This document shows, in pieces, positions 9,427 through 34,264 of a stretch of 49,663 bases of DNA; within the stretch, counting starts at the first letter, position 1, and each line of letters opens with the position of its first letter. A program made the translations under genes and the position numbers. The stretch is taken from positions 1 to 49,663 of the forward strand of contig CADABS010000010.1 of the NCBI GenBank assembly GCA_902786245.1, in the 5' to 3' direction. The DNA is from an uncultured Erysipelotrichaceae bacterium (GTDB lineage: Bacteria; Bacillota_I; Bacilli_A; Erysipelotrichales; Erysipelotrichaceae). The notes below the pieces were generated by a model. The model was not told the DNA's origin, did not search any database, and was given only the letters and a program-made list of their open reading frames with translations.

Positions 9427-9460
9427 AAAAAAAAGACCATATCGCGTGGATATGGTCTTC
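9427..9460 (-). terminator. Intrinsic terminator of the giant surface-protein gene
   Basis: A perfect 11-bp stem (9449-9459 with 9433-9443, loop 9444-9448) followed by eight T lies 18 nt past the stop at 9478. It is the first clear terminator met on the minus strand after the one at 34294-34323, and so marks the end of the long operon. Confidence 0.92.
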
Positions 9461-9477
9461 AGATCTGAATCAGTGAT

Positions 9478-12400
9478 TTATTCCTGTTCCTGCGGCTGAT
9501 CCTCTTCTTCCTGTTTTTCATTGCGCATGCCAACGAAGGCAATAACGAATTCAATGATAGCAAGAATGATCATCAGGATTGTCCAGCGGTCGGTATAGAC
9601 CATCGGACTGCGCATGTCTTCGGTGACCAGGAAGATAATGACTGCGACAAATGCGGTTATGACAGATGCCAACGGCAGAATGACTCTGTGCTTCCTGTCT
9701 TCTTCCTCTTCATCCTGGTCTTCCTGTTCCTCGATCTGCGTTCTTTCTTCGCTTTCTTCTTCCTCTTCGGTCTCCTTCTTTCTGCCGATCAGCCATGCAA
9801 AGATGCACAGGATAACGGCAGCGATGATATCAAGGACAACCGTAACAAGATTCACAAGTGCCCAGTACGAAGCTCTTGCCAGAGGAATCTCTGTATCTTC
9901 GATTTCCGTCAGGGTCACTTCACCGGTTTCTTCATCCACATGGACTTCTGCGGCGGTTTCTTTGGAAGGATCGAGCGGTCTGACTTCCGTACCGGGCTGA
10001 ACGGCCGGTACTGCATCTTCAGGAGCAGGTACTGTTTCCTGATCGCCAGGTACAGGTTCACCCGGTTCTTCCGGTACTGTTTCCTGATCGCCAGGTACAG
10101 GTTCACCCGGTTCTTCCGGTACTGTTTCCTGGTCGCCAGGAGCAGGTTCATCCGGTTCTGCCGGCTGTACGGTAAGCGGCCTGTAGATAATATCGATTGT
10201 CAGGTCGTGCGCCGGCATACCCTTTTCATCGGAACGTACAGAATCATAATCACTCAGCATGCCGGTGATTTCAGGTGCCCGTACAGGTCCGAATGCTTCG
10301 CCTGCAGCGTAGCGTCCGGTATACGGCGGTGCCAGTTCATTGCCGTCCTCATCGACGAAGCGTACGGTCAGCAGATATGTATCCGTGATCGTCAGTCTGC
10401 CGTTTTCGACAATGACCGCGAACTGGTCTGTTACATCTGCACCGGTGAGATCGCTTACCATGGCATCACCGCTGATTTCCGTCGTGTAGATACCCGGATC
10501 AATGCCGGCCGCAAATGCGTTCAGGCCGCTGACGCCGTATGACAGTTCATCGATGACAAAGTCTTCTTTTTCAAATCCTTCGACGCTGTGTTCTTCGCCG
10601 TCAAAGAGTACCTGATCGCTGTTTGCCTGCATCTCAATACGGTAGCGGACATTGCGGCTGTAGACATTCAGTGTGCCTGCTGCTGTCTGGATGATATAGT
10701 TCGCCGCATCTGTATCGGGATTCAGTCTATATGTAAATGTATTTGCGGATGTACCCGGCAGAATGCGTACAGCACCGGTATGATATACCGCGCCTTCACC
10801 GTCTGCCCAGCCGTCGCCGCTGACTGTGATTTCCGCTGCCTGCAGCGGTGTGCCGCTGTATTCAGCCTCCGCAGATGCGCTGGTCAGGATCACGGTGCGC
10901 GGTCTGACTGTCAGGGTTCCGTCTGTGATATGGACAGCGAATTCATCGCTGACATCATTTCCTTCGCTGTCGATGACCGATGCGATACCGCTGAATGTTA
11001 CCGGATAGACACCGGCATTTCTGCCGCTTCCGGATGCGCTGAGACCTCTGATGGTATAGGTGTTTCCGTCAACCGTGAATCTGCTGTTGATCAGACCGCT
11101 GAGCGTATGCGTGCTGCCGTCATAGAGATACTCGCCGCTTCTGGCTGTTACTGTAATTTCGTATTTTACCGTACGCGGAACCACATTGATTTCTCCGAAT
11201 ACGGTTGTGATGTCGTAGTTGTTTTCGTCTGTTCCCTCTTTGAGTGTATAGGTGAATGCGTTGGGGCTGATGCCGCTCAGGCTTCTGCCGCCGGAGAATG
11301 CATAGTCTGCACCTTCATTCTCCGCCCATCCGTCACCGCTGACTTCCACTGTTTCATTGACTGCCTCACGGCCGTTGTATACCGTGCGCACCGATCCGGA
11401 TGTCAGGATGACACTCCGTCTGCGGATATCCATGCGTCCGCTTTCCGTACGGATCAGGAACTGGGCTGTCACATCGTTGCCCTGGCTGTCATATACAGCC
11501 GGTGTTCCGGTGACATTCACCGCATATGTTCCTGCGTCTTTTGCGGAAGCAGATGCCTGCAGACCTCTCAGCGTATAATCTACGCCGTCCGCTTTGATAT
11601 GCAGTACGCCTTCGCTGTCGGCCGGACCGTATACGGTCGAAACGCCTTCTGCGGTATGGGTGCTGCCGTCATATACCCAGCTGCCATTGGCTGCCTTAAC
11701 GGCAATTTCATAGCGGGCCGTATCAGGCCGGCTGTATACTGTCAGGCTGCCGAATTCACTGGCGATATTGTAGTCCTCTGCCCGGGTGCCTTCATTCAGC
11801 GTATATGTGAAGACATTCTCGGAAATGCCCGGCAGGGTCCGTGAACCGCTGACGGAACAGGTGACACCGTCGCCTCTGACGAATCCGTCGCCGCCGATGA
11901 CGATTTCACTGTCGTAGACCGGCATGCCGTTATAGAACGCAGCCGCATCGCGGGACCGCAGCGTGACATTTCTCTTTTCCACTGTCATCGTTCCCGGTAC
12001 CGTCACGATCATGAATTCAGACGTGACATCAATTCCATTGGAATCCCGGACAACCGGTGTTCCGGTGATCAGAACCGGATAGCTGCCGGCATGCACTGCC
12101 GAGGCAAACGCGCTCATGCCGCTGACGGTGTATGTCTCGGAACCGATGCCGAAGCGGGTTGACTTCAGCTGGTTGAGCGTATGTACCGTTCCGTCATAGG
12201 TAAAGGTACCGCCGATAGATTCAAGGCTGATGATATATTTTGCGTCGCGGCTGTGTACCTGCAGTACACCGTCGCTTTCCGTGATGTCGTAGTTGGAAGG
12301 ATCCGTACCTTCATTGAATGTATAGGTGAACGGGTTGGCGCTGATGCCCGGCGCTGTCTGGGTGCCGGTCACCTCGTAGCTGATTCCTTCTTCTGCCGCG

Positions 12401-15400
12401 AATCCGTCGCCGCCGATGATCACTTCCGGCGCTGCCAGCGGACTTCCGTCATACTGCTTTTCCGCGGATGCGGAAACCAGTGAAACAGAACGTCTGAGAA
12501 TCTGCAGCACACCCGGTTCCAGATGAATGACAAATTCCTCTGTCACATCATTGCCTTCTTCATCCAGGATGACAGGCGTTCCGGTGATCGCTGCCGTATA
12601 GGTACCGGCATTGACTGCTTCTGCGGATGCTGTGACATTTGCAATCGTATAGGTATGGCCATTGATGACTGCCGTATCTTCGCACAGACCGCTGACGCTG
12701 TGGGCTGTTCCGTCATAGACTGCTGTGCCGCCGTTGGAGCGGATTGCAATTTCATACTTCGACGTACGTCCGTGTACGGAAAGTACACCATTGCGGACGC
12801 GGAAGATATAGTCGGAAGGATCGGTTCCTTCATTGAGCGTATATGTAAATGTGTTGTCGCTGCTGCCGGTGCGGGTCTGCGTTCCGGTTACGGTGAAGGA
12901 TGCGCCTTCGTTTTCCGCGAATCCGTCGCCGCCGACCGTTACCGTATCCATCGTCAGCGGATCGCCGTCATATTCTTTGTCTGCCGATCCGGACATCAGC
13001 GTGACATCTCTGGCTTTGACTTTCAGGATGCCGGTGACCGTGTTGACGGTAAACTGCTCTGTCACGTCATTGCCGTTTTCATCCTTCACAGCAGGAATGC
13101 CGGTGATCGTGTTGAAATAGGTTCCGGCATGAACTGCAGATGCAGCTGCGGATACGCCTTCAACCGTATAGGTATGGCCTCCGGCTGTGAATTCCGTTGT
13201 TTCAAATCCGGAAACGGAATGTTCACTGCCGTCGCAGAGTACTTCATCCCCATTGGATTTCAGAGTGATCGCATAAGCTTCGGAACGCTTTGAAACATCC
13301 AGTGTTCCATAGACCACAGTGACATCATAATCTGCCGCCGAAGCTGCTCCGGTAAATCTGTAATCGAAGATGTTCTCGCTGGAGCCCGGCAGGATTCTTT
13401 CGCCGCTGACCGTATAGACAGCGCCTTCGCCTTCCGCAAATCCGTCGCCTCCGGCCGTTACTTCCGGTGCCCGCAGCGGATTGCCGTCATATTCTGCCGA
13501 TGCCGAAGCACTGGTCAGGATCAGTTTTCTCTTCGCAATGCGCAGACTGCCGTTTTCACAATGCACCGCAAACTGCGCAGTGACATCGTTTCCTTCACTG
13601 TCTCTGACGGCAGGTGTACCGGTGATGGCGACCGGATAGACACCGGCAGATCTGCCGCTGCCCTGTGCGTTTACGCCTTCAACGGTATATGTGTTTCCAT
13701 CCACCGTGAATTCCGTTGTTTCAAAGCCGGATACCGTATGGACGGTTCCGTCATAGAGAGCACTGCCGCCGGAAGCACGGAGCGTAATTTCATACTTCGC
13801 GCTTCTGTCAATGATTTCCAGACTGCCGTATTCCGTGCGGATATCATAGTTTTCCGCATTTGTATTGGCATACAGCTGATAGGTAAATGTATTCGTGCCT
13901 GTGCCGGCTGCTGTCCGGGTGCCGCTGACGGTATAGACAGCGCCTTCATTTTCAGCCCATCCGTCGCCTCCCACTGTTACAGATGTGTTCCGCAGCGGGA
14001 TGCCGTCATATTCTTTCCGGGCTGAACCCGATACCAGAAGCACGGTGCGTGGCAGTACTGTCAGACTGCCGCTTTCATAATGAATGACAAACTGGGAAGT
14101 GACATCATTGCCCTGATCATCCCTGACCACCGGTGTGCCGGTGATCTTTGCCGCATAGGTGCCGGCACCGGTTCCCTTCGCTTCGGAAACGATGCCCTCG
14201 ACCGTATAGCGGCTGCCGTTGACAGTGAATTCCTCCGTTTCAAATCCGGATACTGTCTTTTCGCTGCCGTCATACATACTGGTCTCCCTGATGCCGCGCA
14301 TTGTCAGTTCGTACTGCTCATCGCGGCTGCTGACACTGAGCGTGCCGAAGACCGTACGGATATTGTAGTTGCCGGCCTTTGTGCCTTCATTCAGTACATA
14401 GCTGAACGCATTGTCGGCAGTTCCCGGGACGGTCTGGCTGCCGCTGACCGTATAGACAGCGCCTTCGCCTTCTGCCCATCCGTCGCCGCTGACCGCAATG
14501 CCGTCATCCGTCAGTGCCGTTCCGTCATACTGTCTGAACGCGGTTGCGGATGTCAGTACGACCGTCCGCGGTTCAACAATCATCCGGCCGCTGCGGATAT
14601 GCACACGGAACTGTTCCGTCACATCATTGCCCTGCGCGTCTCTGACAACCGGTGTACCCTCAACGAATACATCATAGTTTCCGGCATCGCGGGCTTTTCC
14701 TGCCGCCTGCAGTCCTTCGATATGATATGTATTTCCTTCGATCTCGAATGTATCTTCTTCGATTCCGTCCACTGCATGTTCGCTGCCGTCATACAGGAAT
14801 GTGCCGCTGTTTGCGCTGACGGTGATCTCATACAGCGATGCCCGCGGCGCTACCTGCAGTATTCCTGCATTTGCGGTGACTGCGTAGTCAGACGCCAGCG
14901 TATTGTTTCTGAATGTATAGGCAAACGCATTCTGACTGCTGCCGGGGATGCGCTGTACGCCGCTGAATGTATAGTCGGCGCCTTCGTTTTCTGCCCATCC
15001 GTCGCCGCTGACAATGATTTCACTGTTCCGCAGATCCGTTCCGTCATATTCCTTCATGGCAGAGCCGGATGTCAGTACCAGCTGTCTCTGTCCGACCGAC
15101 AGAACACCGTTTTCACAGCGGACGCTGAACTGATCGGTAACATCGTTTCCTTCGCTGTCGCGGATGACAGGCGTGCCTTCAATGATATTTTCATAGTTTC
15201 CGGCATGGACTGCGGATACAGAAGCCTGGATACCTTCCACTGTATACATCTGGGTGCCGGCTCTGAACTGTACTGTCTCAAAGCCGCTGACAGATTTCTT
15301 CGTACCGTCATACAGATATGTTCCGCTGCTGGAACGGACCGTTACCGGATACAGATTCTGGCGGCCGGTGACACTGAGCGTGCCGAACACAGTGCTGATT

Positions 15401-24657: not shown

Positions 24658-24815
24658 ATCTGTTCCCTGCTTTCTAAGTACTCCGCAAAATCTCTGTATG
24701 TCTGTTCAAGTTCTTTTTCTTCTTTGCGATACTGACGCTGCCGGATCAGAAACAGAACCGCCAGCGCTGCCATGAAGCACACCGGAATGATATCCAGCAG
24801 ATCAGGCATTCTCAT
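24654..24815 (-). CDS. Small single-pass membrane protein (53 residues)
   Basis: The product starts MRMPDLLDIIP, has one membrane helix at about residues 9-24 and a charged, helical C-terminal tail. An AAGGA site lies 7 nt before the ATG at 24815. The stop overlaps the start of the giant gene as ATGA, and the start lies inside the end of the gene before it, so translation is probably coupled on both sides. No family is recognised. A role in assembly or membrane handling of the giant protein is only a guess from position. Confidence 0.7.
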   Translation of the reverse strand: MRMPDLLDIIPVCFMAALAVLFLIRQRQYRKEEKELEQTYRDFAEYLESREQI

Positions 24816-24957
24816 AGGCTGTTCCTTCTTTCTCTTCAAATCTTTTCCGCAGCGTTTTTTTCTGTCTGCTTTTTCTGAATAAACGGTATATCTCAAAAAC
24901 CGCGAAAACGGCAAAAGATGCCGCCATCAGCGCAATGGCCGCAATTTCTCTGTTCAT
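24802..24957 (-). CDS. Small single-pass membrane protein (51 residues)
   Basis: This reading frame, short enough to be missed by usual length cut-offs, encodes MNREIAAIALMAASFAVFAV followed by a strongly basic segment (RLFRKSRQKKTLRKRF) and a short acidic end. One membrane helix (about 5-21) is expected with the basic tail inside the cell. Its ATG overlaps the stop of the gene upstream (ATGA), a GGGGAAAAG ribosome site lies just before it, and its end overlaps the next gene by 14 nt. This tight packing supports it as a real gene. Function unknown. Confidence 0.65.
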   Translation of the reverse strand: MNREIAAIALMAASFAVFAVFEIYRLFRKSRQKKTLRKRFEEKEGTAYENA

Positions 24958-25334
24958 GTCTTTTCCCCGCTTTCCCGGTTCCGGAATTCTTCTTCCGCTT
25001 CCACTGCTTTCATCCGCAGTGCATCGATCTGTTTTTCCCGTTCCAGGCAGTACACCGCATACGCGCAGGAGGAGACAAACATCATGCCGGCAAGAACCAG
25101 ATGCCGGGTTTCTCCGCGGCCCTGATCCGGAAAACCGGCCAGCGGTATTTCCGCTTCTTCGATTTCTTCTGCCGCGATTTCCTCAACAACGGTGATTTCA
25201 ATGGTTTCCTCTTCTGTTTCTTCCTCTTCATCCGCATAGACATGCATGTTCAGAACAGCTGCGGTAAAAAGCAGTATCAGCAGAAACAGGAAACGCATCC
25301 GATGCATTATTTTTTTCGGATTGATCTGATTCAT
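24954..25334 (-). CDS. Small exported protein with acidic domain and sortase-like C-terminal signal
   Basis: The 126-residue product has a basic start and hydrophobic signal (about 13-34, ending near VYADEE), a Glu-rich stretch (about 35-60), the phrase AEIPLAGFPDQG (about 61-72), a second membrane helix (about 79-95) and a long charged tail. The phrase matches the common Firmicute order IPLA-x-LPxTG with FPDQG in place of LPxTG, and the IPLA part recurs in the giant protein. So it may be a variant sorting signal or a simple membrane anchor; the 30-residue tail is long for a sortase substrate. An AAGGGGGG site precedes the ATG and the gap to the upstream gene is 9 nt. Function unknown. Confidence 0.75.
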   Translation of the reverse strand: MNQINPKKIMHRMRFLFLLILLFTAAVLNMHVYADEEEETEEETIEITVVEEIAAEEIEEAEIPLAGFPDQGRGETRHLVLAGMMFVSSCAYAVYCLEREKQIDALRMKAVEAEEEFRNRESGEKT

Positions 25335-25343
25335 AGGCCCCCC

Positions 25344-26567
25344 TTATCCCTTTTTCAGGGTCATGGCCAGGTGCAGTGTATTGCCGATATGATCGGGTAT
25401 ATAAACATCAAGATTCTCTTTCGGGCGCCCGAAAACGATTTCCCCGCTTTCTTCTTCCCAGCGCAGCGGCAGGATCTTTTCTCCCGCCGGATTCAGGGCA
25501 TAGACACCTCTGAAACGCACGCCTATTCCTTCATCCTCCACATGCAGAACAACTTCCTGCGCAGTGACTTTGCTGTCGAGAAGACGCGGTGCGCTGCAGT
25601 CGGCTTCGGTCACTGTCTGCACGGTGCTGACAGACTGCCGGTTGATCAGTTCCACCTCGATCTTCATTTCGCCATTGCGTACCGGCTCAACGGTAAATGT
25701 CCTTGCCGAGGCTTCATATACCGGCAGAGCGGATTTTCCCATAAACGCCCTGACGCTCCGCAGCGGCAGAAGCGACCGCACATCGATCGTATATTCAGGG
25801 AGTCCCCGGGTTCCGCCGGAAGCAGCAGATACGGAATACTCCGGCAGAAAAAACAACAGCGGCAGAGCGGCAAACAGAATCATCAGTACGGTCAGTACCG
25901 ATCTCTGCATGGAAAAGCGTTCTTTGCGGTATACGGTATAGGAAGCCAGGGCTTCCAGAGGCACCTTGTTCTCCTTGGCGCCGCAGGCACGGAACACATC
26001 TTCAAGGATCACCGCCGCATCCGTTGCCTTCATGCGGGCATCCGTGCGGCTGATCTTCTCAATGTTTCCTGCCGGCAGACCGCATCCGCCTTCCCGGTGC
26101 AGATGGCTGATGCCGTGTTTCAGACACCGCTTCACCATGGAAACCGGGATATTCAGATGGCCGGATATCTCCGAATCCGGATAGTCCTGGGCATAATGCA
26201 TGAAGAGCACCTGCGACTGCAGCACCGGCAGATTCATGATCTGCATGACTGTACAGGTACTGTTCTGTACCTGTACCGGGGTGCCGCTGTCCGGCACGCA
26301 CAGATCTGCGTCCATGCATTTCTGCACGCATATACGGTATGCCCATGGCATGAAAAGGTCCTTGTTCTGCAGATACGGCAGATGTTCATGGATTTCGGTC
26401 CATATCTCCCGCATCATCCGCAGCGACATTTCCCTGTCCTGTGCCATGGCGAAAACATATGTATACATGCGGGATGATGCCGCAGCGTACAGTTCTGCAA
26501 AAAAATCGCTGTTTCCGCAGGCCCGCACTGCAAGATCATTCAGATATGCCTGATCCAGTTTTTCCAT
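25344..26567 (-). CDS. ECF-sigma-like protein fused to a membrane helix and extracytoplasmic domain
   Basis: The first 160 of 407 residues look like an ECF sigma factor: region 2 at about 12-80 (FFAELYAAASSRMYTYVFAM, then FMPWAYRICVQKCMD) and region 4 at about 101-155 (LPVLQSQVLFMHYAQDYPDSEISGHLNIP, the helix-turn-helix, split here as LPVLQSQVLF and DSEISGHLNIP). A linker leads to one membrane helix (about 223-241) and an outer beta-rich domain ending in YIPDHIGNTLHLAMTLKKG. Normally sigma factor and membrane anti-sigma are separate proteins; here sensor and DNA-binding parts are in one chain. Activation by cleavage or by direct membrane tethering are both possible. The ATG at 26567 was chosen over a GTG at 26591; its ribosome site (GGGTAAAT) is weak. 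Target promoters are unknown. Confidence 0.8.
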   Translation of the reverse strand: MEKLDQAYLNDLAVRACGNSDFFAELYAAASSRMYTYVFAMAQDREMSLRMMREIWTEIHEHLPYLQNKDLFMPWAYRICVQKCMDADLCVPDSGTPVQVQNSTCTVMQIMNLPVLQSQVLFMHYAQDYPDSEISGHLNIPVSMVKRCLKHGISHLHREGGCGLPAGNIEKISRTDARMKATDAAVILEDVFRACGAKENKVPLEALASYTVYRKERFSMQRSVLTVLMILFAALPLLFFLPEYSVSAASGGTRGLPEYTIDVRSLLPLRSVRAFMGKSALPVYEASARTFTVEPVRNGEMKIEVELINRQSVSTVQTVTEADCSAPRLLDSKVTAQEVVLHVEDEGIGVRFRGVYALNPAGEKILPLRWEEESGEIVFGRPKENLDVYIPDHIGNTLHLAMTLKKG

Positions 26568-26591
26568 ATTTACCCGATTTCTATATATCAC

Positions 26592-26624
26592 AGGCGGAAT
26601 GAAGACACCATTGCTTCACCGCCT
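26592..26624 (-). other. Hairpin in the gap before the sigma-like gene
   Basis: The 74-nt gap between the GGDEF-type gene and the sigma-like gene, the longest in this operon, holds a stem of 6 + 5 bp (AGGCGG with CCGCCT, then TGAAG with CTTCA, two-base bulge, 9-nt loop). No T run follows, so it is not a terminator. It may be an RNA-processing or stability element, or control translation of the sigma-like gene. Confidence 0.4.
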
Positions 26625-26641
26625 TAACTTTCAAACTTGAT

Positions 26642-27343
26642 TTATTCTTTGATTATCATTCCGGAATGTGCCCGCCGGTCGGACAGAGCGACCAGTTCCG
26701 TCAGGGTATGCGCTTCTTCACCTTCCTGAAAAGCTCTTCCCGCCTGCCAGCGCAGAATCATATCCGGATGGCTCTGATTCCACTGGTCCGTGTTTTCTTC
26801 CATCATCGCAATCAGTCTGTTCAGCTTCTGCTCGGTGCATTTTTCAATGATCACCAGGAATTTGTTTCCGCCGTTGCGGCCGATAAATCCGTTTCCGTCA
26901 AAGGAGCGCTGCAGAATATCGGAAAAAGCCCTGATCGCGGTATCGCCGCCGGTATGTCCGTGTCTGGCATTGATTTCGCCCAGGCACGTCAGATCGATCG
27001 TCAGACAGCCCATCTCCCGGTTCAAAGGACGGTTTAAGTGGCGGCTGAGATAGACATCCGCACTGTAGCGGTTGGCAATCCCGGTCAGAGGATCGGACCA
27101 GACAGCGTTGTCCAGTTCAATATTCTCTCTGCGCAGTGCTGTATAGGAATTGAAATCATAGAACAGAAATGCCAGAGAGATGCCGGTCAGAATCCACAGC
27201 AGCAGACAGAGAAAACGGACATGGCTGTCTGCCGCAATCATCGCATACAGTTCGCCGTCGCTGAAAATGACCGTCAGCGCCGCTGCGGCAATCAGTATGA
27301 TCAGAACCATCTGTATGGTTTTTACAATGTCAAACCGCTTCAT
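26642..27343 (-). CDS. Membrane protein with degenerate GGDEF domain
   Basis: The 233-residue product has two membrane helices (about 10-28 and 43-62), a short coiled linker and a GGDEF-type domain from about residue 83 (DPLTGIANR). The signature motif reads GGNKF at 158-162 instead of GGDEF, which lacks the acidic residues needed for metal binding and catalysis. So diguanylate cyclase activity is unlikely; the domain more likely binds a nucleotide or a partner protein. The start overlaps the signal peptidase stop by 4 nt (ATGA). It sits with a second decayed GGDEF-like domain (gene at 28369) in the same operon. Confidence 0.85.
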   Translation of the reverse strand: MKRFDIVKTIQMVLIILIAAAALTVIFSDGELYAMIAADSHVRFLCLLLWILTGISLAFLFYDFNSYTALRRENIELDNAVWSDPLTGIANRYSADVYLSRHLNRPLNREMGCLTIDLTCLGEINARHGHTGGDTAIRAFSDILQRSFDGNGFIGRNGGNKFLVIIEKCTEQKLNRLIAMMEENTDQWNQSHPDMILRWQAGRAFQEGEEAHTLTELVALSDRRAHSGMIIKE

Positions 27344-27867
27344 GAGCCTGTCCCCGTTTCAAAATGCATGATGATTTTCCCTTTGATCTGTCTGCGGTTC
27401 ACTTCTCCGAATGTCCGTGAATCCATGGATACCTGCCGGTTGTCACCGAGCACAAAGACATTTCCTTCCCGGACGGTATACGGAAATATGACTGCCGATG
27501 TCTGTTCTTCCGTCACGCCGGAAGCATTTTCATCCGCAATGTCAGCGCCGTTGACCAGAACACTTCCGTCCCTGATGTCAACCGTATCGCCGCCCACGGC
27601 AATCACCCGCTTGACATAGTAGTCCCCGGCCGGCACCCGCATCGATACAACATCGCCCGGCATATATTCCGGAACAATGCGCAGATAGACAACGATGTCG
27701 CCGCTGTGAAAAGACGGCTTCATGGAGTCTCCGCCGATGATTGAGATACCGATGACGAACCGGAAGAGAACGAAAACAAGAACTGTCAGGATGATAAAAT
27801 GCATGGAATCATGAAGCCATTCCAGTTTTGACCCGTTGTATTTTTCCAGAATCCTTTTCTTTGCCAT
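27340..27867 (-). CDS. lepB: Signal peptidase I
   Basis: This 175-residue S26A peptidase cuts signal peptides from exported proteins. It has one N-terminal membrane helix (about 23-44), the nucleophile Ser48 in GGDSMKPS, the general-base Lys86 in YYVKRVIAVGGD, and the box E motif GDNRQVSMDSRTFG. This is the usual Gram-positive single-helix form. Placed inside a pilus/surface-protein operon, it may be dedicated to proteins made by that operon, as seen for signal peptidases beside sortase-pilus loci, but here no sortase is present. The gene follows the 155-aa protein by 24 nt and overlaps the GGDEF-type gene by 4 nt. Confidence 0.95.
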   Translation of the reverse strand: MAKKRILEKYNGSKLEWLHDSMHFIILTVLVFVLFRFVIGISIIGGDSMKPSFHSGDIVVYLRIVPEYMPGDVVSMRVPAGDYYVKRVIAVGGDTVDIRDGSVLVNGADIADENASGVTEEQTSAVIFPYTVREGNVFVLGDNRQVSMDSRTFGEVNRRQIKGKIIMHFETGTGS

Positions 27868-27891
27868 ATTCTCATCCTGTCTGAATGCAGA

Positions 27892-28359
27892 TTACTGCCA
27901 GTCTGTCGTCTTGTCTTTGTCTTCCTTGTACTGTTCCATCGCGCTGTCGATCAGCTTCATCATTTCCCAGGCTGAGCGGAAATTCATGGTCTTGTCCTCA
28001 TCGACCCACGTAATTCTTCCCTGCCAGCTGCTGTTCTGACGGTGCTGCACACGAATGATAAAAGTACCCAGTTCTCCGTGTTTTTCCAATAATTCCTGAT
28101 CGCTCATAACCTGCTTCCTTTCTTCTTTTACGGGAGTATGAAACTGCTGTGTAAACAGTCTCGGATTGGTTCCTGAAAACGGGAACCGGAGTTCATCGAA
28201 CAGGTCTTCCAGCTGGAACAGAAGCTGTTCCTCGGAAGAGACCCGGACTCCGATCCGCGAGAATTTATGATAGAACGTACAGTCAAATCTGCCGACGCCG
28301 ACACTGTCGACGCACAGTATGACACCGTTCAGCATGCCGATATATTTCTGTGTTGCCAT
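27892..28359 (-). CDS. Conserved protein of unknown function, partner of the BTAD-type regulator
   Basis: The 155-residue product has two recognisable halves: KYIGMLNGVILCVDSV with YHKFSRIGVRVSSEEQLLFQLEDLFD (quoted in parts: YHKFSRIGV, EEQLLFQLEDLFDEL) and, after about residue 85, FIIRVQHRQNSSWQGRITW followed by FRSAWEMMKLIDSA. From memory, similar proteins with the RQNSSWQG phrase recur in Firmicutes next to SARP/BTAD regulators, but no function is known to me. No signal peptide or membrane helix is seen. It follows the regulator gene by 9 nt, so a direct partner or accessory role in regulation is plausible but unproven. Confidence 0.75.
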   Translation of the reverse strand: MATQKYIGMLNGVILCVDSVGVGRFDCTFYHKFSRIGVRVSSEEQLLFQLEDLFDELRFPFSGTNPRLFTQQFHTPVKEERKQVMSDQELLEKHGELGTFIIRVQHRQNSSWQGRITWVDEDKTMNFRSAWEMMKLIDSAMEQYKEDKDKTTDWQ

Positions 28360-28368
28360 AGCTGACTC

Positions 28369-29595
28369 CTAGCGCATCAGTCCCTGTGCATCCGTATCAT
28401 GTCCGTAGATGACACTGTTGACATGATACTGCACACCGGTGCGCTGACGGCCGATGACAAAGTGCTCATTGATACGCTTCTGCACGATCCGGCAGTTTTC
28501 CAGCGTCGTATTGGCCAGCAGGACCAGATACTGTCCCTTGGAATAGCGGTTGATGACATCGGTGCGGCGCACAGATCTGTGAATAGCATCGTTCAGCCGC
28601 TCGGACAGTTCATCCCGGCGCGGTGAATCGCGCATCGGATTGCCCTTGGAATCGACGATCGTGCACAGCATCAGATATACGGACTGACCGCCTCTTTCCA
28701 GCATTCTTTCAATGACCTGATAGATACCCATGAAGACCGGATAGGAACAGATATAGCCGCCGGCTTCATCGCTTTTCTCGGAAAGATTGTACTGGATCTC
28801 ATCCAGAACTTCATACTGATGATCGATCTGCGCTCCCAGCTGCGAAAGCATTTCAAACATTCTGTCGCTCGGCCGCATGCCCTGTTCCTGCATGTAGTAG
28901 TCGACCGTATCCTCATACAGCTTCATCGCATCTTCATATCTGCCGGTGGCGACGATGGCCTCCATCGTGACGGTTTCCCAGTCGGACAGGGGCTGGATCA
29001 CACTGGCATAGCTGCCGAGTTCTTCCATCCGGGCAAATTCGCCGTTTTCCCGCAGCAGCGCTGCTGTCTCATCGACCAGTTCGATAAACAGGTTGCGGTA
29101 TTTGCGCGCTTCTTTCGCCACCCATACCTGGCTGATCTGCTGTTCCATAAACTCTCCGGTATACTGATGGATCGCATCCCAGCACATTTCCAGCTTCTTT
29201 GCCTTGTCTGTTTCCTTCCGGATCTCCATGGCCATCTGCTCAAATACATCCGCATCTTCACAGACTTCGATTTCATCCGTCCAGTAGAACATGCCTTCTT
29301 TCTGAATGATATAGTTCACATCCGGCAGTCCGAGTGCCTTCAGTTTTTTCTTGGCATTATAGACGACTGACTGCGCGGCATGATGAACATTGGTCAGATC
29401 CTTATTGCGGAAGAGCGTTTCTTCCAGCAAATCGCGGCTGACTCCCTTCTGTCCGTAATGAAGCAGTATCTGCATCAGATACACAAACTGCGATTCACTG
29501 GATTTGGACTTCCCGGTAATCAGCTTGCCGTTATACCGCATGGAAAATACACCGAATGTTTTTACATACAGAACATCTCTGCGTTCCGTTTCCAT
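28369..29595 (-). CDS. SARP/BTAD-type transcriptional regulator with C-terminal GGDEF-like domain
   Basis: The 408-residue protein starts with a winged-helix DNA-binding domain (about 8-105; YVKTFGVFSMRYNGKLI, then SRDLLEETLF and AAQSVVYNAKKKLKALG), followed by a bacterial transcriptional activator (BTAD) helical-repeat domain (about 110-245). The last 140 residues resemble a GGDEF fold: the usual RYGGDEFLVLL position reads RYSKGQYLVLL at about 350-360, so no cyclase activity is expected. This suggests a regulator whose output domain is tied to a nucleotide- or partner-sensing pseudo-enzyme. It lies 18 nt after pilT and is the likely local regulator of the operon. Confidence 0.85.
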   Translation of the reverse strand: METERRDVLYVKTFGVFSMRYNGKLITGKSKSSESQFVYLMQILLHYGQKGVSRDLLEETLFRNKDLTNVHHAAQSVVYNAKKKLKALGLPDVNYIIQKEGMFYWTDEIEVCEDADVFEQMAMEIRKETDKAKKLEMCWDAIHQYTGEFMEQQISQVWVAKEARKYRNLFIELVDETAALLRENGEFARMEELGSYASVIQPLSDWETVTMEAIVATGRYEDAMKLYEDTVDYYMQEQGMRPSDRMFEMLSQLGAQIDHQYEVLDEIQYNLSEKSDEAGGYICSYPVFMGIYQVIERMLERGGQSVYLMLCTIVDSKGNPMRDSPRRDELSERLNDAIHRSVRRTDVINRYSKGQYLVLLANTTLENCRIVQKRINEHFVIGRQRTGVQYHVNSVIYGHDTDAQGLMR

Positions 29596-29613
29596 ATCCG
29601 TTTCTCCTTTCCG

Positions 29614-30666
29614 TCAGATGCGCTTGACGATATTTTCATAATGCACGCAGTAGCCCAGAACTGTTTCTTTTGTGATTCTGCCTTCCTTATACAGTTTCAG
29701 CAGACTCCCGTCCATTGTATACATGCCCTGGTCCGCACCTGACTGCATTGCTGAATCAAGCTGATGAAGCTTTCCTTCCCGGATCATATTCTGAATGGCA
29801 GGTGTCATCTTGAGCACTTCGAATACCGGAATCTGTTTTCCTTCCTTATCCGGCACCAGCTGCTGGCAGACAATTCCCCGCAGGATCTGCGCCAGCTGGA
29901 TCTTGATCTGCTGCTGCTGCGAAGCCGGAAAGACATCAATGATCCGGTTGATGGTATTGGCTGCGCTGCTTGTATGCAGCGTACTGAACAGCAGAACGCC
30001 TGTTTCCGCTGCGGTGATCGCCGAAGAAATCGTGTCATAGTCCCGCATCTCACCCAGCAGAATTACATCCGGGCTTTCCCGCAGAGCCGAGCGCAGAGAT
30101 TCAAGATAGCCCGGTGTATCGATAAAGATTTCCCGCTGCGAGACGATCGATCTGTCATGGCGGTGGATATACTCAATCGGATCTTCCATCGTGATGATAT
30201 GGCAGGAACGGGTCCGGTTGATCCGGTCGATCATGCATGCCAGCGTCGTCGACTTGCCGGTCCCCGCTGCCCCGGTCACCAGCAGAAGTCCTTTATTGTT
30301 GTCCGCCAGAGACAGAACGCTTTCGGGAATGCCGAGCTTTTCAGGATCGGGCAGACCGAAATGAATGACCCGGATGACTGCCGCAAGCGAACCGCGCTGA
30401 CGGAAAATATTCACCCGGAAGCGGCCGAGCTCATAGATTGAAAACGAAAAGTCATCATCCGACCCGCTCTGAATGGCATCATCCTGGCGTCTGGCCAGGG
30501 AATAGATTCCATTGATCAGCACCTGGATGGAATCCGGCTTGAGAATATCGGATTCCAGACGGTTCTGCCGGCCTCTGCATTTGAGCGTCACCGGCAGCCC
30601 GGCAATCAGAAATATATCCGACGCGTCTTCATCAATTGCTTTTTTCAGTATTTCTTCAATCGTCAT
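29614..30666 (-). CDS. pilT: PilT-family pilus ATPase
   Basis: This 350-residue hexameric ATPase belongs to the type II/IV secretion family, PilT branch. Visible motifs are Walker A GAAGTGKST (about 132-140), the Asp box (IEYIHRHDRSIVSQREI), Walker B DVILLGEMRD (about 200-209), the His box TLHTSSAANTINRIIDVFP and the PilT-specific signature AIQNMIREGKLHQLDSAMQS. PilT normally powers pilus retraction while PilB powers extension. No PilB is encoded in the window, so this single ATPase may serve both directions or work with a partner elsewhere. It is flanked by pseudopilin-like genes (9 nt gap) and the BTAD regulator. Confidence 0.95.
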   Translation of the reverse strand: MTIEEILKKAIDEDASDIFLIAGLPVTLKCRGRQNRLESDILKPDSIQVLINGIYSLARRQDDAIQSGSDDDFSFSIYELGRFRVNIFRQRGSLAAVIRVIHFGLPDPEKLGIPESVLSLADNNKGLLLVTGAAGTGKSTTLACMIDRINRTRSCHIITMEDPIEYIHRHDRSIVSQREIFIDTPGYLESLRSALRESPDVILLGEMRDYDTISSAITAAETGVLLFSTLHTSSAANTINRIIDVFPASQQQQIKIQLAQILRGIVCQQLVPDKEGKQIPVFEVLKMTPAIQNMIREGKLHQLDSAMQSGADQGMYTMDGSLLKLYKEGRITKETVLGYCVHYENIVKRI

Positions 30667-30675
30667 ACAGTTACC

Positions 30676-31035
30676 TCACTGTCCCGGCCAAAGTCCTTCG
30701 ATGTGTTCATCCTGGACCCATTCCCGGGTAATTTTCCATTTTCTGACCGTATAGGAACCATCTTCGGTTCCCGCCTCTATTTCCAGACGGTATCCGTCCT
30801 TTTCAAATTCTTTTTCGATCGTTCCGCTGTAGCCTTCCGCCAGTCTCTGGCTGACATAGCTGCGCCCTTCTTTTTCCAGTTCATAGCGCACGGCCACGGC
30901 ATCCGCGAAACGCTGGGCCAGCGCAAGATCTGCTTTTGCGGTGGAGTATGTCAGGATCGCAAACGTCGACAGACAGATTGAAATCACTGTCAGGACCAGT
31001 GCCAGCGGTCCGAGTCTGACTGTTTTCCCGTTCAT
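30676..31035 (-). CDS. Pseudopilin-like membrane protein A
   Basis: The 119-residue product has one N-terminal membrane helix (about 10-31) followed by a soluble domain with a helical start (TAKADLALAQRFADAVAVRYE) and beta-rich end. That layout matches minor pilins or pseudopilins, but no Gly-Phe-x4-Glu prepilin peptidase site is seen, so it may be an uncleaved, pilus-associated protein. Its start overlaps the end of the preceding gene by 4 nt and pilT begins 9 nt after its stop. Exact family not recognised. Confidence 0.7.
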   Translation of the reverse strand: MNGKTVRLGPLALVLTVISICLSTFAILTYSTAKADLALAQRFADAVAVRYELEKEGRSYVSQRLAEGYSGTIEKEFEKDGYRLEIEAGTEDGSYTVRKWKITREWVQDEHIEGLWPGQ

Positions 31036-31454
31036 TGGCCCCCTCCTGTGATCCGTCCTGTTTCCAGACGGTATATTTCTTTCTCTGATGCGTATACGGT
31101 GATTTCTCCGGCACAGAATCTGTTTTCCTCCTGCCAGGTGATGCGCACCTGCAGATCGCCGCCGGCAGCCGGACGCATGTCCCAGTCATATGTACAGATG
31201 ACCGCATGGTCTTCCGTATATGCGTTGCCGTTTTCATTCAGCACTGCCAGCAGTTCTTCTTCTGTCTCCGTGCCGGCAAATGCTTCTGCGCTTTTTTCCG
31301 CCAGAATGACGGCGGAGGTCAGCGTTTCCGCTTTCTCGCTTTCCTGTCTGGAACCCGTGAAGGTGACAGCCAGGATCTGGATGACAAGGAAGAATACAAT
31401 TGCCAGAACAACCGTTTCCATATAGAAAACCGTATGATTTCTTTCCGGACTCAT
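31032..31454 (-). CDS. Pseudopilin-like membrane protein B
   Basis: The 140-residue product has a membrane helix at about 13-32 starting VFYMETVVLAIVFFLVIQIL, where the Glu lies at the position expected for the conserved pilin Glu5. A Gly or Ala cleavage residue is missing. A helix (SEKAETLTSAVILAEKSAEAF) and a beta-rich C-terminal domain follow, as in minor pilins. Both ends overlap neighbouring genes by 4 nt, so expression is coupled. It is probably a structural part of the pilus-like fibre or its base. Confidence 0.72.
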   Translation of the reverse strand: MSPERNHTVFYMETVVLAIVFFLVIQILAVTFTGSRQESEKAETLTSAVILAEKSAEAFAGTETEEELLAVLNENGNAYTEDHAVICTYDWDMRPAAGGDLQVRITWQEENRFCAGEITVYASEKEIYRLETGRITGGGQ

Positions 31455-31900
31455 TGGCTGCCTCCCCGGAAGAGAAGCATACTGCCGGCATCCGTTGTAA
31501 TGCGGTACAGCCGTTCTCCTTCTTCCTCGATCGTAAATATTTCCGTTTCGCCGATTTCACTGGCATTCGCCGGATCCGGCACCGGTGCATCTGTGATCTT
31601 TGTATATTCTTCCAGCAGTCTGCCGTCCCTGGCATAGATCATCAGACCGTAACCGGTATCGCCGTCCGCAATCATCAGAATATCACTGCCGGACTTTGTG
31701 ATCGTACCGTCCCGGCCCGAACCCGCACTGGTGACCAGATACGACAGCAGCTGACGGTTCATATTATTGCTTTCCTGCACGGCAACCGCGCTGCGGTAGC
31801 TCATCGCTCCGAAGACGACCAAAAGCAGAAAGCCCGTCAGAAAGAACGCAGCGATCGCAATTGTATAGACTCCCAGCAGCGACTTTCTCTTTTTTTCCAT
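31451..31900 (-). CDS. Pseudopilin-like protein C (DUF4860-type)
   Basis: The 149-residue product has a basic start, a membrane helix at about 9-31 (VYTIAIAAFFLTGFLLLVVF) and a soluble domain with MNRQLLSYLVTSAGSG and LMIYARDGRLLEEYTKI. It resembles the DUF4860 family, which in Firmicutes occurs next to GspF and pilus ATPase genes and is thought to be pseudopilin-like; the match is from memory. It overlaps the next gene by 4 nt and follows the previous one by 12 nt. Confidence 0.72.
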   Translation of the reverse strand: MEKKRKSLLGVYTIAIAAFFLTGFLLLVVFGAMSYRSAVAVQESNNMNRQLLSYLVTSAGSGRDGTITKSGSDILMIADGDTGYGLMIYARDGRLLEEYTKITDAPVPDPANASEIGETEIFTIEEEGERLYRITTDAGSMLLFRGGSQ

Positions 31901-31912
31901 GCCGTCTCCTTT

Positions 31913-32227
31913 CTATTCGTATCTGTATCTCACTCTTACTTCCGGCAGAAGATTCTGCGCAAACGCATCATAGGAAATGTAAAAATCTTTCGTGTTGACA
32001 TGCAGTCCGTAGTTTTCCTGCAGATATTTCAGATCCGGCGGATAGACACCTTCCACCACATAGCACTGGCGGGCAGCCTGCAGCACTGCGGTTTTCACCG
32101 CGGTCAGGGATTCTTCGCTGATATCATTCTTCAGTGCCGAAGAACGCAGCATGGAAACCAGGGCAGCCGCGCAGATGCAGAGCAGAAGAATGCCGGGCCA
32201 GCGCTTCTTTCTTTTCTCCGTATACAT
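31913..32227 (-). CDS. Pseudopilin-like small membrane protein D
   Basis: The 104-residue product has a membrane helix at about 11-27, then a helix with AVKTAVLQAARQCYVVEGVYPPDLKYLQENYG, quoted in parts as LQAARQCYVVEG and YPPDLKYLQENYG. The second phrase is typical of pseudopilins of the GspG/ComGC sort, in which such a segment follows the N-terminal helix. The gene lies 9 nt after the GspF-type gene and 12 nt before the DUF4860-type gene. A clear prepilin cleavage site is not seen. Confidence 0.7.
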   Translation of the reverse strand: MYTEKRKKRWPGILLLCICAAALVSMLRSSALKNDISEESLTAVKTAVLQAARQCYVVEGVYPPDLKYLQENYGLHVNTKDFYISYDAFAQNLLPEVRVRYRYE

Positions 32228-32236
32228 TCTCTCTCC

Positions 32237-33280
32237 TTATCCGATCGACCCCATCATGCCGATCAGCGGCAGCATGACACTGAGCAGCGTCATCGCAATC
32301 GTCACCATCAGAATTCCCGACAGCAGCGGTTCCACCGTATTGACCACCTGATCGACCTGACCCATGCATGATTCCTTCAGCAGCGAAGTCAGACGCTTCA
32401 GCACGGATTCCATATGTCCGCTTCTTTCGCCCGGCAGCAGCATTCTTCCATAGATCGGTTCATACAGTTCCTCATCATAGGCGGCCTGGGCAAAGCCGAT
32501 GCCTTCTTCCATCCGGGCTGCGCATCTTTTCAGTTTTTCTTCAACTCTGGGGCTGTCGGTCATCGCAATGGAATCCAGAACGGCATTGTCCTGCATTTCG
32601 CCGCTGGCCAGATACATTTCCAGGGCACTGGTAAATCTGAACATTGCCATTTTTTCCAGGATCGAAGCCGACGCCGGAAACTTCCACAGGAACTCTTCGA
32701 CCTGTTTCCGCTTTCCGCTGTTCCACAGCAGCAGTCCGGCTGTCATTGCGATGGCAAGAATGACCATGACAGCCAGGGCGATCCGGCAGAATGCATATGA
32801 CATATTGATATAGCGGTAGGAGGAAACGGAAAGACTGCCGGTCAGCCGTTCATAGACAGACGTAAAGGTCGGCAGGACCATGACCAGAAGCACCGCCAGG
32901 ACAACGATGATCATGGCGATCATCGACGCCGGATAGATCACGGCTCCACGGATCCTGTCAGCAATCGTTTTCTGATCGCGGTAATAATCGGAAAGCTGGA
33001 ACAGAACATCTTCCAGACGGCCGGTCGATTCTCCTGCTTCGATCATCTTCAGCGCATATTCCGGGAAGATGCCTGTGGCTTCCGCTGCTTCTTTCAGCGT
33101 CCGGCCTTCTCCCACCATCGACGCCATCTGATCCAACGCTTCCCCAAGCGGACCGGTCTGATGTTCCCCCTGGCGCAGCAGCGTGATTGCCTCATCGGTC
33201 TGTATGCCGGAGCGTACCATCATGCCCATGCTTTCGCAGAATGCGCTGACACCCAGCTGATCTAATTCCTTCTTTTTCAT
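32237..33280 (-). CDS. Type II secretion / type IV pilus platform protein (GspF/PilC family)
   Basis: This 347-residue inner-membrane platform protein has two T2SSF domains, about 10-130 (MGMMVRSGIQTDEAI, EAGESTGRLEDVL) and 210-335 (FTSALEMYLASGEM, LLPGERSGHMESVL), with membrane helices near 115-140, 165-190 and 315-340. Such proteins link the cytoplasmic ATPase to the growing pilin fibre. It is the only platform gene of the locus. The start is 9 nt past the transglutaminase-like gene and an AGGAGACGCTT-type ribosome site precedes the ATG. Confidence 0.93.
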   Translation of the reverse strand: MKKKELDQLGVSAFCESMGMMVRSGIQTDEAITLLRQGEHQTGPLGEALDQMASMVGEGRTLKEAAEATGIFPEYALKMIEAGESTGRLEDVLFQLSDYYRDQKTIADRIRGAVIYPASMIAMIIVVLAVLLVMVLPTFTSVYERLTGSLSVSSYRYINMSYAFCRIALAVMVILAIAMTAGLLLWNSGKRKQVEEFLWKFPASASILEKMAMFRFTSALEMYLASGEMQDNAVLDSIAMTDSPRVEEKLKRCAARMEEGIGFAQAAYDEELYEPIYGRMLLPGERSGHMESVLKRLTSLLKESCMGQVDQVVNTVEPLLSGILMVTIAMTLLSVMLPLIGMMGSIG

Positions 33281-33289
33281 AAGCGTCTC

Positions 33290-34246
33290 CTAATACTCAT
33301 ATACATCGGCGTAATTGTCGCCGTTGCCGATAAATCTGTTGTTGGCTCCGTTGGCGGAAAAAGTCAGATCCAGTCTTGTCCATGTTTTTCCGTCAGCTTT
33401 CAGTTCTACGGTTACCCAGCCGGTTTTCTCTGTATAAAACATATTCCATGCATGATAAATGTCATTGGGTGAGACATAGCCGAAGATTACTTTTGTCGGT
33501 ATGCCCTGGCTGCGCATCATGCTGGCGGCAAGCGAAGCATAGTCGAAGCAGATGCCCATGCCGGTTTCCATCGTTTCATCCGGCACCGGCATATAGCCGG
33601 ACTGGATGTTCTCCGCTTTTTCATCATCGTATTTCACGGTATCGCAGATAAACGTATAGACGCTGGCAATAAAATCGCTTTCATCCTTCGCTGCGTCTGC
33701 CATCTCTTTTGCCTTCTGCACGCATTCGGATTTTTCGGTATAGCTGACATAGTCGCTGGGCCGGATAAACGGCTGAAACTCATCGATCAGTTTTACCTGT
33801 GCTTCTTCCCGGTACAGCTCCGCATATTTGGAATCAACAATGTTTTTCATGACCCGGAACAGATATGTTCCGTCGCCTGACTGCAGCGGAAAGAATGCCG
33901 GTGTACCGTCATTATCAACGTTATATGTATAGGTCTGATCATCTTTGATGACCATCAGCTTGATCCTTGCGTCTTCGACGACCGAAACGGCAATGTAGCC
34001 TTCTTCGGTATGGGACAGATCGAGATGAATGTTTTCCGTGCCGCTGCTGGCCGCTTCGTCATAGACGCTGTCCTCAAACGGATCCGGCTCAAATCTGCTT
34101 CTGGCTTCTGCCGGCACAGCTGTCTTTTCCGCCGGCTCTGTCATGGCCGCGGCCTCGCCGCTGCAGGCAGTCAGAAAAACACTGCACAGCAGAAACAGTG
34201 CACCTCTACGGTTTCTTCTTTTATGCCTGGCGGAAAACGGTTTCAT
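33290..34246 (-). CDS. Transglutaminase-like lipoprotein
   Basis: The 318-residue product begins with a basic segment and a lipoprotein signal ending LTAC. The C-terminal half is a transglutaminase-like fold with the triad visible: Cys in MGICFDYASLAA, His in DIYHAWNMFY and Asp in WTRLDLTFSA. The family includes proteases and cross-linking enzymes acting on surface proteins. Here it is exported and lipid-anchored, so it might process or cross-link the giant surface protein or the pilus; that is inferred from position only. The ATG at 34246 was chosen over a TTG at 34297 because the extended -10 at 34264-34256 lies between them. No ribosome site is seen, which fits a nearly leaderless message. 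Confidence 0.88.
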   Translation of the reverse strand: MKPFSARHKRRNRRGALFLLCSVFLTACSGEAAAMTEPAEKTAVPAEARSRFEPDPFEDSVYDEAASSGTENIHLDLSHTEEGYIAVSVVEDARIKLMVIKDDQTYTYNVDNDGTPAFFPLQSGDGTYLFRVMKNIVDSKYAELYREEAQVKLIDEFQPFIRPSDYVSYTEKSECVQKAKEMADAAKDESDFIASVYTFICDTVKYDDEKAENIQSGYMPVPDETMETGMGICFDYASLAASMMRSQGIPTKVIFGYVSPNDIYHAWNMFYTEKTGWVTVELKADGKTWTRLDLTFSANGANNRFIGNGDNYADVYEY

Positions 34247-34255
34247 ACTGGTTTC

Positions 34256-34264
34256 ATTATAGCA
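34256..34264 (-). promoter_or_regulatory. Extended -10 promoter at the head of the surface/pilus operon
   Basis: TGCTATAAT on the minus strand is a perfect extended -10 element, which can work without a -35 box; none is obvious at the right distance. It ends 9 nt before the ATG at 34246, so the transcript would have a leader of only a few bases. It is the only good promoter I see upstream of the 16-gene run. Confidence 0.6.

Follow-up and report, generated by a model that had tools for sequence, protein, structure and literature searches.

A putative type IV filament-like cassette joined to a giant surface-protein module in an uncultured Erysipelotrichaceae bacterium

Introduction

Whether a pilus-like gene set and a giant surface protein encoded in one run of genes also work as one system is the question raised by the locus described here. 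An earlier note on this DNA proposed that building the machine, processing exported proteins and displaying the giant belong to one programme, for which no described system with this gene set was known. The latter statement agrees with searches of the open-access literature, in which nothing relevant was found for DUF4860, FILTED or this gene set.

Organization of the run

The window, i.e., the whole stretch of 49,663 bases that was analysed, is a MAG contig, and the u155/S26 join discussed below is taken as assembled. Window ORFs and their translations confirmed 16 minus-strand genes in one run, from 34246 down to 9478 (Table 1). The program-made ORF list holds 15 of them, and the sixteenth is a 51-aa membrane ORF overlapping both neighbours, with counterparts at the equivalent position in the relatives G031 and G217. 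The successive gaps are 9, 9, 12, -4, -4, 9, 18, 9, 24, -4, 74, 9, -4, -14 and -4 nt, that of 74 nt lying between the GGDEF and sigma-like genes. The strong terminator previously placed at 9427 was borne out by a hairpin (9460-9432) followed by T's, and a second terminator-like hairpin was located at about 34315-34300, just upstream of the run. The proposed extended -10, TGCTATAAT, is present at 34264-34256, yet just 9 nt lie between its end and the ATG, and this first gene has no visible Shine-Dalgarno sequence, so the mRNA would be almost leaderless; as the element is also not clearly conserved upstream of the transglutaminase-like gene in relatives, it stays a candidate promoter. The run may be co-transcribed.

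Nearly all of the original gene calls hold, including T2SSF, TIGR01420 PilT, BTAD, signal peptidase I, GGDEF, sigma region 4, the transglutaminase core and Big_2/MBG. The reading of two GGDEF-like proteins as pseudo-enzymes was likewise right: GGN replaces the diguanylate cyclase active site GG[D/E]EF in 6/6 module-B homologues, and the C-terminus of the BTAD protein is degenerate.

Table 1. Features of the run and the evidence for each (positions within the window)
Feature	Position	Strand	Evidence
TGase, transglutaminase-like cysteine-enzyme lipoprotein	33290..34246	-	PF01841 79.7 bits; lipobox LTAC
GspF/PilC platform protein	32237..33280	-	PF00482 130 bits
pp1, pilin-like, EGxYP motif	31913..32227	-	AF2 model and structural comparison
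pp2, DUF4860 protein, predicted GspJ-type minor-pseudopilin fold	31451..31900	-	PF16152; AF2 pLDDT 77.8
pp3, pilin-like, E5-like invariant Glu	31032..31454	-	Glu 59/59 in alignment column
pp4, pilin-like, Gly before hydrophobic helix	30676..31035	-	Gly 60/61 in alignment column
PilT-family ATPase, the locus's only type IV filament ATPase	29614..30666	-	TIGR01420 410 bits, cut-off 319
BTAD regulator, degenerate GGDEF-like C-terminus	28369..29595	-	PF03704 41.1 bits, cut-off 22.1
u155, small protein, no family assigned, travels with BTAD	27892..28359	-	follows BTAD in relatives
Seam module A/module B	27868..27891	.	relatives carry A and B separately, split exactly there
Signal peptidase I (S26), P-type, Ser/Lys dyad	27340..27867	-	TIGR02227 118 bits
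Membrane GGDEF-fold pseudo-enzyme (GGNKF)	26642..27343	-	PF00990 71 bits
Sigma-like cytoplasmic part, TM and conserved extracellular domain	25344..26567	-	PF08281 27 bits
u126, secreted/membrane protein	24954..25334	-	homologues at equivalent position in G031, G063, G217
51-aa membrane protein, 16th gene	24802..24957	-	counterparts in G031, G217
53-aa membrane protein	24654..24815	-	
Giant surface protein, 5059 aa	9478..24657	-	FILTED model and repeats
FILTED tail of the giant (PLA..YWALVNL..FLVTEDM..DRWTILM)	9481..9903	-	NF052597; alignment A10
Intrinsic terminator at run end	9432..9460	-	12-pair hairpin, then T's

Two modules and their border

Comparison with relatives indicates that two recurrent modules, elsewhere kept apart, are joined in this run. 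Module A comprises the transglutaminase-like lipoprotein, GspF, four pilin-like proteins, PilT, the BTAD regulator and u155, and module B comprises signal peptidase I, the pseudo-GGDEF protein, the sigma-like membrane protein, three small membrane proteins and the giant. Module A lies on contig C103 of G031 and the S26-GGDEF-sigma-giant genes on its contig C59; in G063, the start of module B (S26-GGDEF-sigma-u126) is on a contig other than that of the cassette; G217 has the whole of module B with no module A, and G026 has module A with no sigma gene. The pilus genes and the giant gene are thus separate in relatives, against the single-system view, and one ancestral operon was rejected, the split falling at 27.87-27.89 kb. 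A module border at 26.4-26.6 kb was rejected as well, since none of the six genomes examined separates the GGDEF gene from the sigma gene. Two further genomes show the modules joined in the reverse order, with GGDEF and sigma directly upstream of the cassette (GGDEF-sigma in G009; S26-GGDEF-sigma in G182, where S26 is also upstream). The G+C content of modules A and B (0.517 and 0.514) neither proves nor excludes a chimeric join.

Within module B, the Ser and Lys dyad motifs of the signal peptidase were found in 5/5 homologues. The sigma-like protein only just passes the region 4 model (27 bits, cut-off 25.7) and all ECF models are below cut-off; G009 and G182 lack region 4 and retain the outer domain. 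The giant runs from a signal peptide through a Pro/Glu/Thr region, Big_2, and InlB-like and MBG repeats to a C-terminal FILTED membrane tail.

A type IV filament-like cassette

The core order TGase-GspF-pp1-pp2-pp3-pp4-PilT is invariant at 64 loci of one taxonomic order, with the full set at 53 of them, and the cassette is present in 31/73 genera. By gene content and order, this core appears to be an undescribed type IV filament-like cassette. The Cys/His/Asp triad motifs of the TGase (GICFDYA, YHAW, DPTF) are conserved across 54 homologues.

Fold predictions among the four pilin-like proteins cover pp1 and pp2. The pp1 model matched the type IV pilins 6xxd, 4noa and 4d40 (VIA-align Z 7.5, 6.3 and 6.1; next row 2.8), and its sequence profile gave only weak pilin matches in the PDB (2hi2, 8uhf). 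DUF4860 (PF16152) was detected in 26/26 pp2 homologues, and the pp2 model reached Z 9.4-8.3 against EpsJ/XcpW/GspJ and a further pilin-like protein, the next unrelated row being 4.3; the best GspJ-type match (Z 9.4, rmsd 3.4, 108 residues) points to a GspJ-type minor-pseudopilin fold. The pp3 profile found a weak pilin match to PilA5, a Pfam scan of its members gave nothing consistent, the pp4 profile had no match in the PDB, and comparison of the two profiles revealed no convincing relation.

The 62 cassette PilTs form one clade (support 100/99) apart from the PilTs adjoining PilB, with bit scores of 466-666 vs at most 393 for others. BTAD accompanies 38 of the 64 cassettes and none of 20 ordinary pilT loci taken as controls (p = 7e-7); it adjoins 36/64 cassettes, lying directly downstream of 25 and just upstream of 11. 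BTAD is followed by u155 in G026 and G031 and at eight other loci (L034-L041). No extension ATPase (PilB) was found at the locus, and cassette loci carry PilT alone. Across the whole genome, the PilT model matched nothing besides the cassette PilT except a short ComGA-like ATPase on contig C20. As the locus itself has no extension ATPase, assembly may need that ComGA from elsewhere.

An ordinary retractile type IV pilus for adhesion or twitching would use the cassette as platform, retraction motor and tip pilins, and draw the major pilin, prepilin peptidase and ComGA/PilB from other loci. In line with this, the cassette PilT is canonical in type, having the Walker A, Asp box and His box motifs, the genome contains one PF01478 (Peptidase_A24) match, on contig C4, and a comG-like locus elsewhere encodes an ATPase, GspF and GFTLLEM pilins; a PF01478 gene occurs in 58/60 relatives, cassette-bearing or not. 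An ordinary PilT is also carried by 28 of the 59 cassette genomes, but is missing from the other 31. Moreover, the prepilin site (A/G)x4(D/E) with a hydrophobic helix was detected in only 5/241 cassette pilin-like proteins; pp3 keeps the Glu and pp4 the Gly, and both hardly ever occur together. The cassette also has its own platform and a PilT of a separate clade, and no PilM, PilN or PilO gene lies within the 16-gene run, which makes an ordinary pilus a somewhat unlikely account. Far less probable is a relative of competence pili that assists DNA uptake: the superfamily is the same and the genome has a separate comG-like locus, but no competence genes are found at the locus, its neighbours are surface proteins and BTAD, and the ComGA model NF041000 stays below cut-off (126 bits vs 300).

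Association with FILTED-tail proteins

The giant's tail resembles those of FILTED-domain surface proteins, scoring 102.9 bits with NF052597, above the curated cut-off of 40. The tail profile A10 built in this work was set aside as biased because most of its seeds were proteins encoded next to cassettes, and the survey was rerun with the independent NCBIfam model NF052597. FILTED-tail proteins occurred in 26/59 cassette genomes vs 6/176 others (p = 5e-13), whereas no link to ordinary pilT emerged (9/45 with, 23/190 without; p = 0.22); the genomes are related by descent, and these p-values overstate independence. Of 73 genera, 31 have the cassette, and these include all 14 with FILTED proteins; in six genomes a FILTED protein lies at most 10 kb from the cassette, with 0.5 expected by size. 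The overlap is incomplete: six FILTED genomes have no cassette, including G217; FILTED proteins are missing from several genomes that carry the cassette, most notably in family f2, whose cassettes have SpaA/TasA-type proteins as neighbours instead; and in genus g1 the two coincide in only 2/6.

An alternative is that A and B are two unrelated surface systems in surface-gene islands, joined here by accident and co-occurring through lifestyle and shared ancestry. Their separability in G031, G063, G217 and G026 fits this, as does the occurrence of BTAD/u155 in TasA/SipW/SpaA clusters without a cassette. The modules are nevertheless linked in at least two arrangements (the window; G182 and G009), and the strong association with FILTED proteins holds for the cassette PilT and not for the ordinary one, so that an accidental join is considered unlikely. 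The idea of one programme accordingly fails as one ancestral operon and is partly supported as a looser functional link, through the G182/G009 joins, BTAD and the co-occurrence of FILTED with the cassette but not with ordinary PilT.

Comparison with known systems

Like the type IVa pili of monoderm bacteria (PMC6916266), the cassette, whose hosts are presumed monoderm, has a GspF/PilC platform, a PilT ATPase and several pilin-like proteins. It differs from them in the lack of an extension ATPase, PilM, PilN, PilO and prepilin peptidase at the locus and of a conserved class III signal peptide, in the TGase-like lipoprotein within the cassette and in its separate PilT clade. The predicted GspJ fold of pp2 recalls the type II secretion pseudopilus (GspG-K) and the set of four small pilin-like proteins its H-I-J-K tip, the analogy of pp3/pp4 to GspI/K being drawn from residue patterns alone. 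Unlike in type II secretion, the ATPase is of the PilT and not the GspE type (GspE model 113 bits, cut-off 630), and no GspE, GspC, L, M or secretin gene was found at the locus. A single ATPase is shared with Tad (type IVc) pili and their two-way CpaF (PMC12019362), from which the cassette is distinguished by a PilT clade that is not TadA/CpaF, one platform gene vs TadB/TadC and no Flp pilin.

The LapA/LapD/LapG system of proteobacteria brings together a giant adhesin, a GGDEF-fold pseudo-enzyme and a transglutaminase-like cysteine enzyme. By analogy only, the run pairs the same three kinds of protein; it has no LapD EAL domain and no known retention module, and its LapG model match is far below cut-off.

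Proposed working

The reading preferred here, put forward tentatively, is that the cassette may be a pseudopilus driven by PilT and serving the display or processing of very large surface proteins. Module A would be a minimal type IV filament-like machine with a GspF platform, PilT as the only motor at the locus and four pilin-like proteins resembling a pilus tip (GspJ-like, pilin-like, E5-like Glu, fixed Gly), of which the surface transglutaminase-like Cys-His-Asp enzyme would form part and which BTAD/u155 would regulate. Module B would make the giant wall-spanning protein, held by its multi-pass FILTED tail, and supply its own signal peptidase and membrane regulators. Driven by PilT, a short pseudopilus rooted in the membrane might then move in cycles into the thick wall and back, and so help very large surface proteins to be threaded, seated or repositioned; the TGase-like lipoprotein could subsequently cut or cross-link these proteins or the pseudopilus itself. 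Filament assembly, motor direction, substrate and the TGase reaction are all conjectural in this scheme. In one known pilus, PilT can promote not only retraction but also extension (PMC9815625); CpaF, the ATPase of Tad pili, drives both (PMC12019362).

A bolder and rather improbable version takes the cassette as a dedicated monoderm surface-display machine, a type IV filament with only a PilT-clade motor that does without the classical prepilin site, whose clients are marked by FILTED-type tails. If true, proteins would be sorted by a system of the same general kind as sortase or T2SS-linked sorting. The open-access literature yielded no paper describing the FILTED tail or tying it to a pilus-like machine, and no explanation of how FILTED-tail giants reach the surface; the cassette is put forward here as a first partner for them. 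A PilT-only filament machine without a conserved prepilin site would also directly test PilT-driven assembly, a question raised by work on the MSHA pilus, and DUF4860 gains a predicted fold.

The PilT cassette

Profile searches across 235 genomes of the order separated PilT into two distinct groups, one scoring 466-666 bits (59 genomes) and the other at most 393 bits (45 genomes), with both kinds together in 28 genomes. In the fetched loci, the high-scoring PilT sits in a cassette and the low-scoring one mostly adjoins a second, PilB-type ATPase gene. The 62 cassette PilTs form one clade in a maximum-likelihood tree (support 100/99). BTAD searches and neighbourhoods revealed that the genes for a transglutaminase-like lipoprotein (TGase), GspF, four pilin-like proteins (pp1-pp4) and PilT, in that order and often with the BTAD regulator and u155, are inherited as a single block. 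TGase, GspF, pp2, pp3, pp4 and PilT are found at 53 of 64 cassette loci, where missing genes are partly an effect of contig ends; many genomes are draft assemblies with loci often cut in this way, and absence there is weak evidence. A search of 392 genomes sampled from the phylum detected DUF4860, the family of pp2, in 14, all of them cassette genomes of the window's order. Library scans of the window returned a transglutaminase core, T2SSF, a BTAD protein ending in a degenerate GGDEF-like stretch, signal peptidase I, GGDEF, sigma region 4 and PilT (TIGR01420, 410 bits), and catalytic motifs are present in PilT and TGase.

pp2 is predicted to fold into one 59-residue helix and a seven-strand sheet (pLDDT 77.8 from an alignment of three sequences), with the GspJ-type minor pseudopilins EpsJ, XcpW and GspJ and a Thermus pilin-like protein as best structural matches (Z 9.4-8.3; unrelated rows begin at Z 4.3). 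Since Foldseek gave only E 0.096, the GspJ-type assignment depends on the second aligner. Three type IV pilins match the pp1 model (pLDDT 68.9), with Z 7.5-6.1; the next row is at 2.8. An invariant Glu occupies the pilin E5 position in pp3 and a nearly invariant Gly precedes the helix in pp4, yet among the 241 proteins in the four families just 5 have the (A/G)x4(D/E) processing motif. As the comG-like pilins of the same genome carry the canonical motif, the difference between cassette and ComG pilins is real within one cell.

Judged by membership features from a monoderm pilus review (PMC6916266) and a superfamily survey (PMC6668835), the cassette shares superfamily parts with type IVa pili, type II secretion and Com but belongs to none of them. 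An ordinary retractile pilus is a less probable reading than the one proposed below. Pil, tad and com operons are treated in a survey of type IV pili in Gram-positive bacteria from 2011, whose consulted passages make no mention of a PilT-only cassette (PMC3244431), and a search confined to open-access journal papers found no description of the cassette, FILTED biology or DUF4860 function.

The best explanation, offered tentatively, is a pseudopilus driven by PilT and GspF that aids very large surface or pilin proteins. PilT and GspF would power a short pseudopilus built from the four pilin-like proteins, which would help such proteins to cross the thick wall or settle in it; their cross-linking or processing may fall to the TGase-like lipoprotein, with timing set by BTAD and u155. 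Composition, order, monophyly, two predicted folds, the catalytic motifs and associations are the observations from which we infer this working. That a PilT-type ATPase could be the only motor is conceivable, because MSHA pilus extension requires PilT (PMC9815625) and CpaF is reported to act in both directions (PMC12019362). ComGA could also act in trans for the cassette.

Two modules and their seam

The genome of the window (2.75 Mb over 102 contigs) contributes one entire contig of 49,663 bases, G000:C10, on which the sixteen minus-strand genes of the earlier note were recovered as 15 listed ORFs plus a 51-aa ORF, together with the strong terminator at the end of the run. Successive gaps measure 9, 9, 12, -4, -4, 9, 18, 9, 24, -4, 74, 9, -4, -14 and -4 nt. 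A further terminator-like hairpin lies immediately upstream. The proposed extended -10 is present, although it is not clearly conserved and, if used, would yield a nearly leaderless TGase mRNA; no Shine-Dalgarno sequence precedes the TGase ATG at 34246.

Features of the window and of related loci (window positions unless a genome and contig, G:C, or a fetched locus, L, is named)
Feature	Position	Strand	Remark
16-gene run	34246-9478	-	
51-aa membrane ORF (16th gene)	24802-24957	-	overlaps both neighbours; same-place counterparts in G031 and G217
Strong terminator ending the run	9460-9432	-	
Extended -10	34256-34264		
T-box leader (RF00230, 114.9 bits)	9095-9303	-	directly past the operon terminator; upstream of ABC solute-binding protein gene 7954-8967
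comG-like locus, own genome	G000:C20:21845-24400 (L084)		short ATPase, GspF, pilins with canonical GFTLLEM prepilin motifs
Sigma-like proteins without sigma region 4 (G009 and G182)	L083:1061-2137, L116:13987-14958		membrane and outer domains retained
Second FILTED-tail protein, own genome	G000:C82:585-905		different contig from the window
Lone ORFs of the u155 C-terminal half	L039:11722-11931, L116:18098-18280		also in G041, L049, L052

The second block consists of S26 (signal peptidase I), GGDEF, sigma-like, u126, u51, u53 and giant genes, and the seam is the 24-nt gap separating u155 from S26. The single system proposed earlier is partly supported. The blocks are joined in the window's contig as assembled, and in two further genomes, where S26-GGDEF-sigma (G182) or GGDEF-sigma (G009) stands immediately upstream of the cassette, the reverse of the window's order. 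They are separable in four others: the second block is complete and separate from the cassette in G031, complete with the giant clipped by a contig end in G217, where no cassette was found, and partial with the cassette on a different contig in G063, while G026 has the cassette and lacks the sigma gene. In G031 (C59; L081/L082) the block is flanked by ftsA/ftsZ and an rluB-like gene.

The GGDEF protein of the second block carries GGN in place of its motif in all six homologues and is thus a conserved pseudo-enzyme, as had been supposed. The Ser/Lys motifs of the signal peptidase are intact in the five homologues found. The outer domain of the sigma-like protein is kept in all homologues and region 4 is lost in G009 and G182, which makes a sigma function there doubtful; their sequences suggest a one-time sigma factor that became a membrane regulator. 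Library scans assigned the repeats of the giant to Big_2, MBG and InlB-like types, and its multi-pass tail is the NCBIfam FILTED domain, which scores 102.9 bits (cut-off 40).

Association with surface proteins

BTAD accompanies 38 of 64 cassettes against 0 of 20 ordinary pilT loci, those outside the cassette (Fisher 7e-7); named surface-protein families, labelled with profiles built here from few seeds, accompany 18 of 64 against 0 of 20 (Fisher 0.005), and signal peptidases 8 of 64 against 0 of 20. Of the 59 cassette genomes, 26 have a FILTED protein above the NCBIfam cut-off, as do 6 of the 176 remaining genomes (odds ratio 22, p 5e-13); ordinary pilT put to this test yields 9 of 45 against 23 of 190 (p 0.22). 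Every one of the 14 FILTED genera belongs to the cassette genera, which number 31 of 73 (hypergeometric p 7e-7). In 6 genomes a FILTED protein is no more than 10 kb away from the cassette, against about 0.5 expected. Common ancestry raises the apparent significance of all these p-values. The link is weak in one genus, g1 (cassette in 2 of 6 FILTED genomes), and in family f2 cassettes adjoin SpaA/TasA-type proteins and FILTED proteins are few. That the genes are accidental neighbours is rated slightly less probable still than a retractile pilus.

The BTAD and u155 pair also occurs with no PilT cassette in view at five loci (L034, L035, L039, L040 and L051; u155 partial in L040), beside TasA/CalY-like proteins, SipW or S26-type peptidases and SpaA-type or large surface-protein clusters, which suggests that this pair of regulators serves surface structures of two types. 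Some loci have a small independent ORF for the C-terminal half of u155 (..QNxxWQGxVTWVxExKxxxFRSALELLKLID..), arranged in tandem with a copy of u155.
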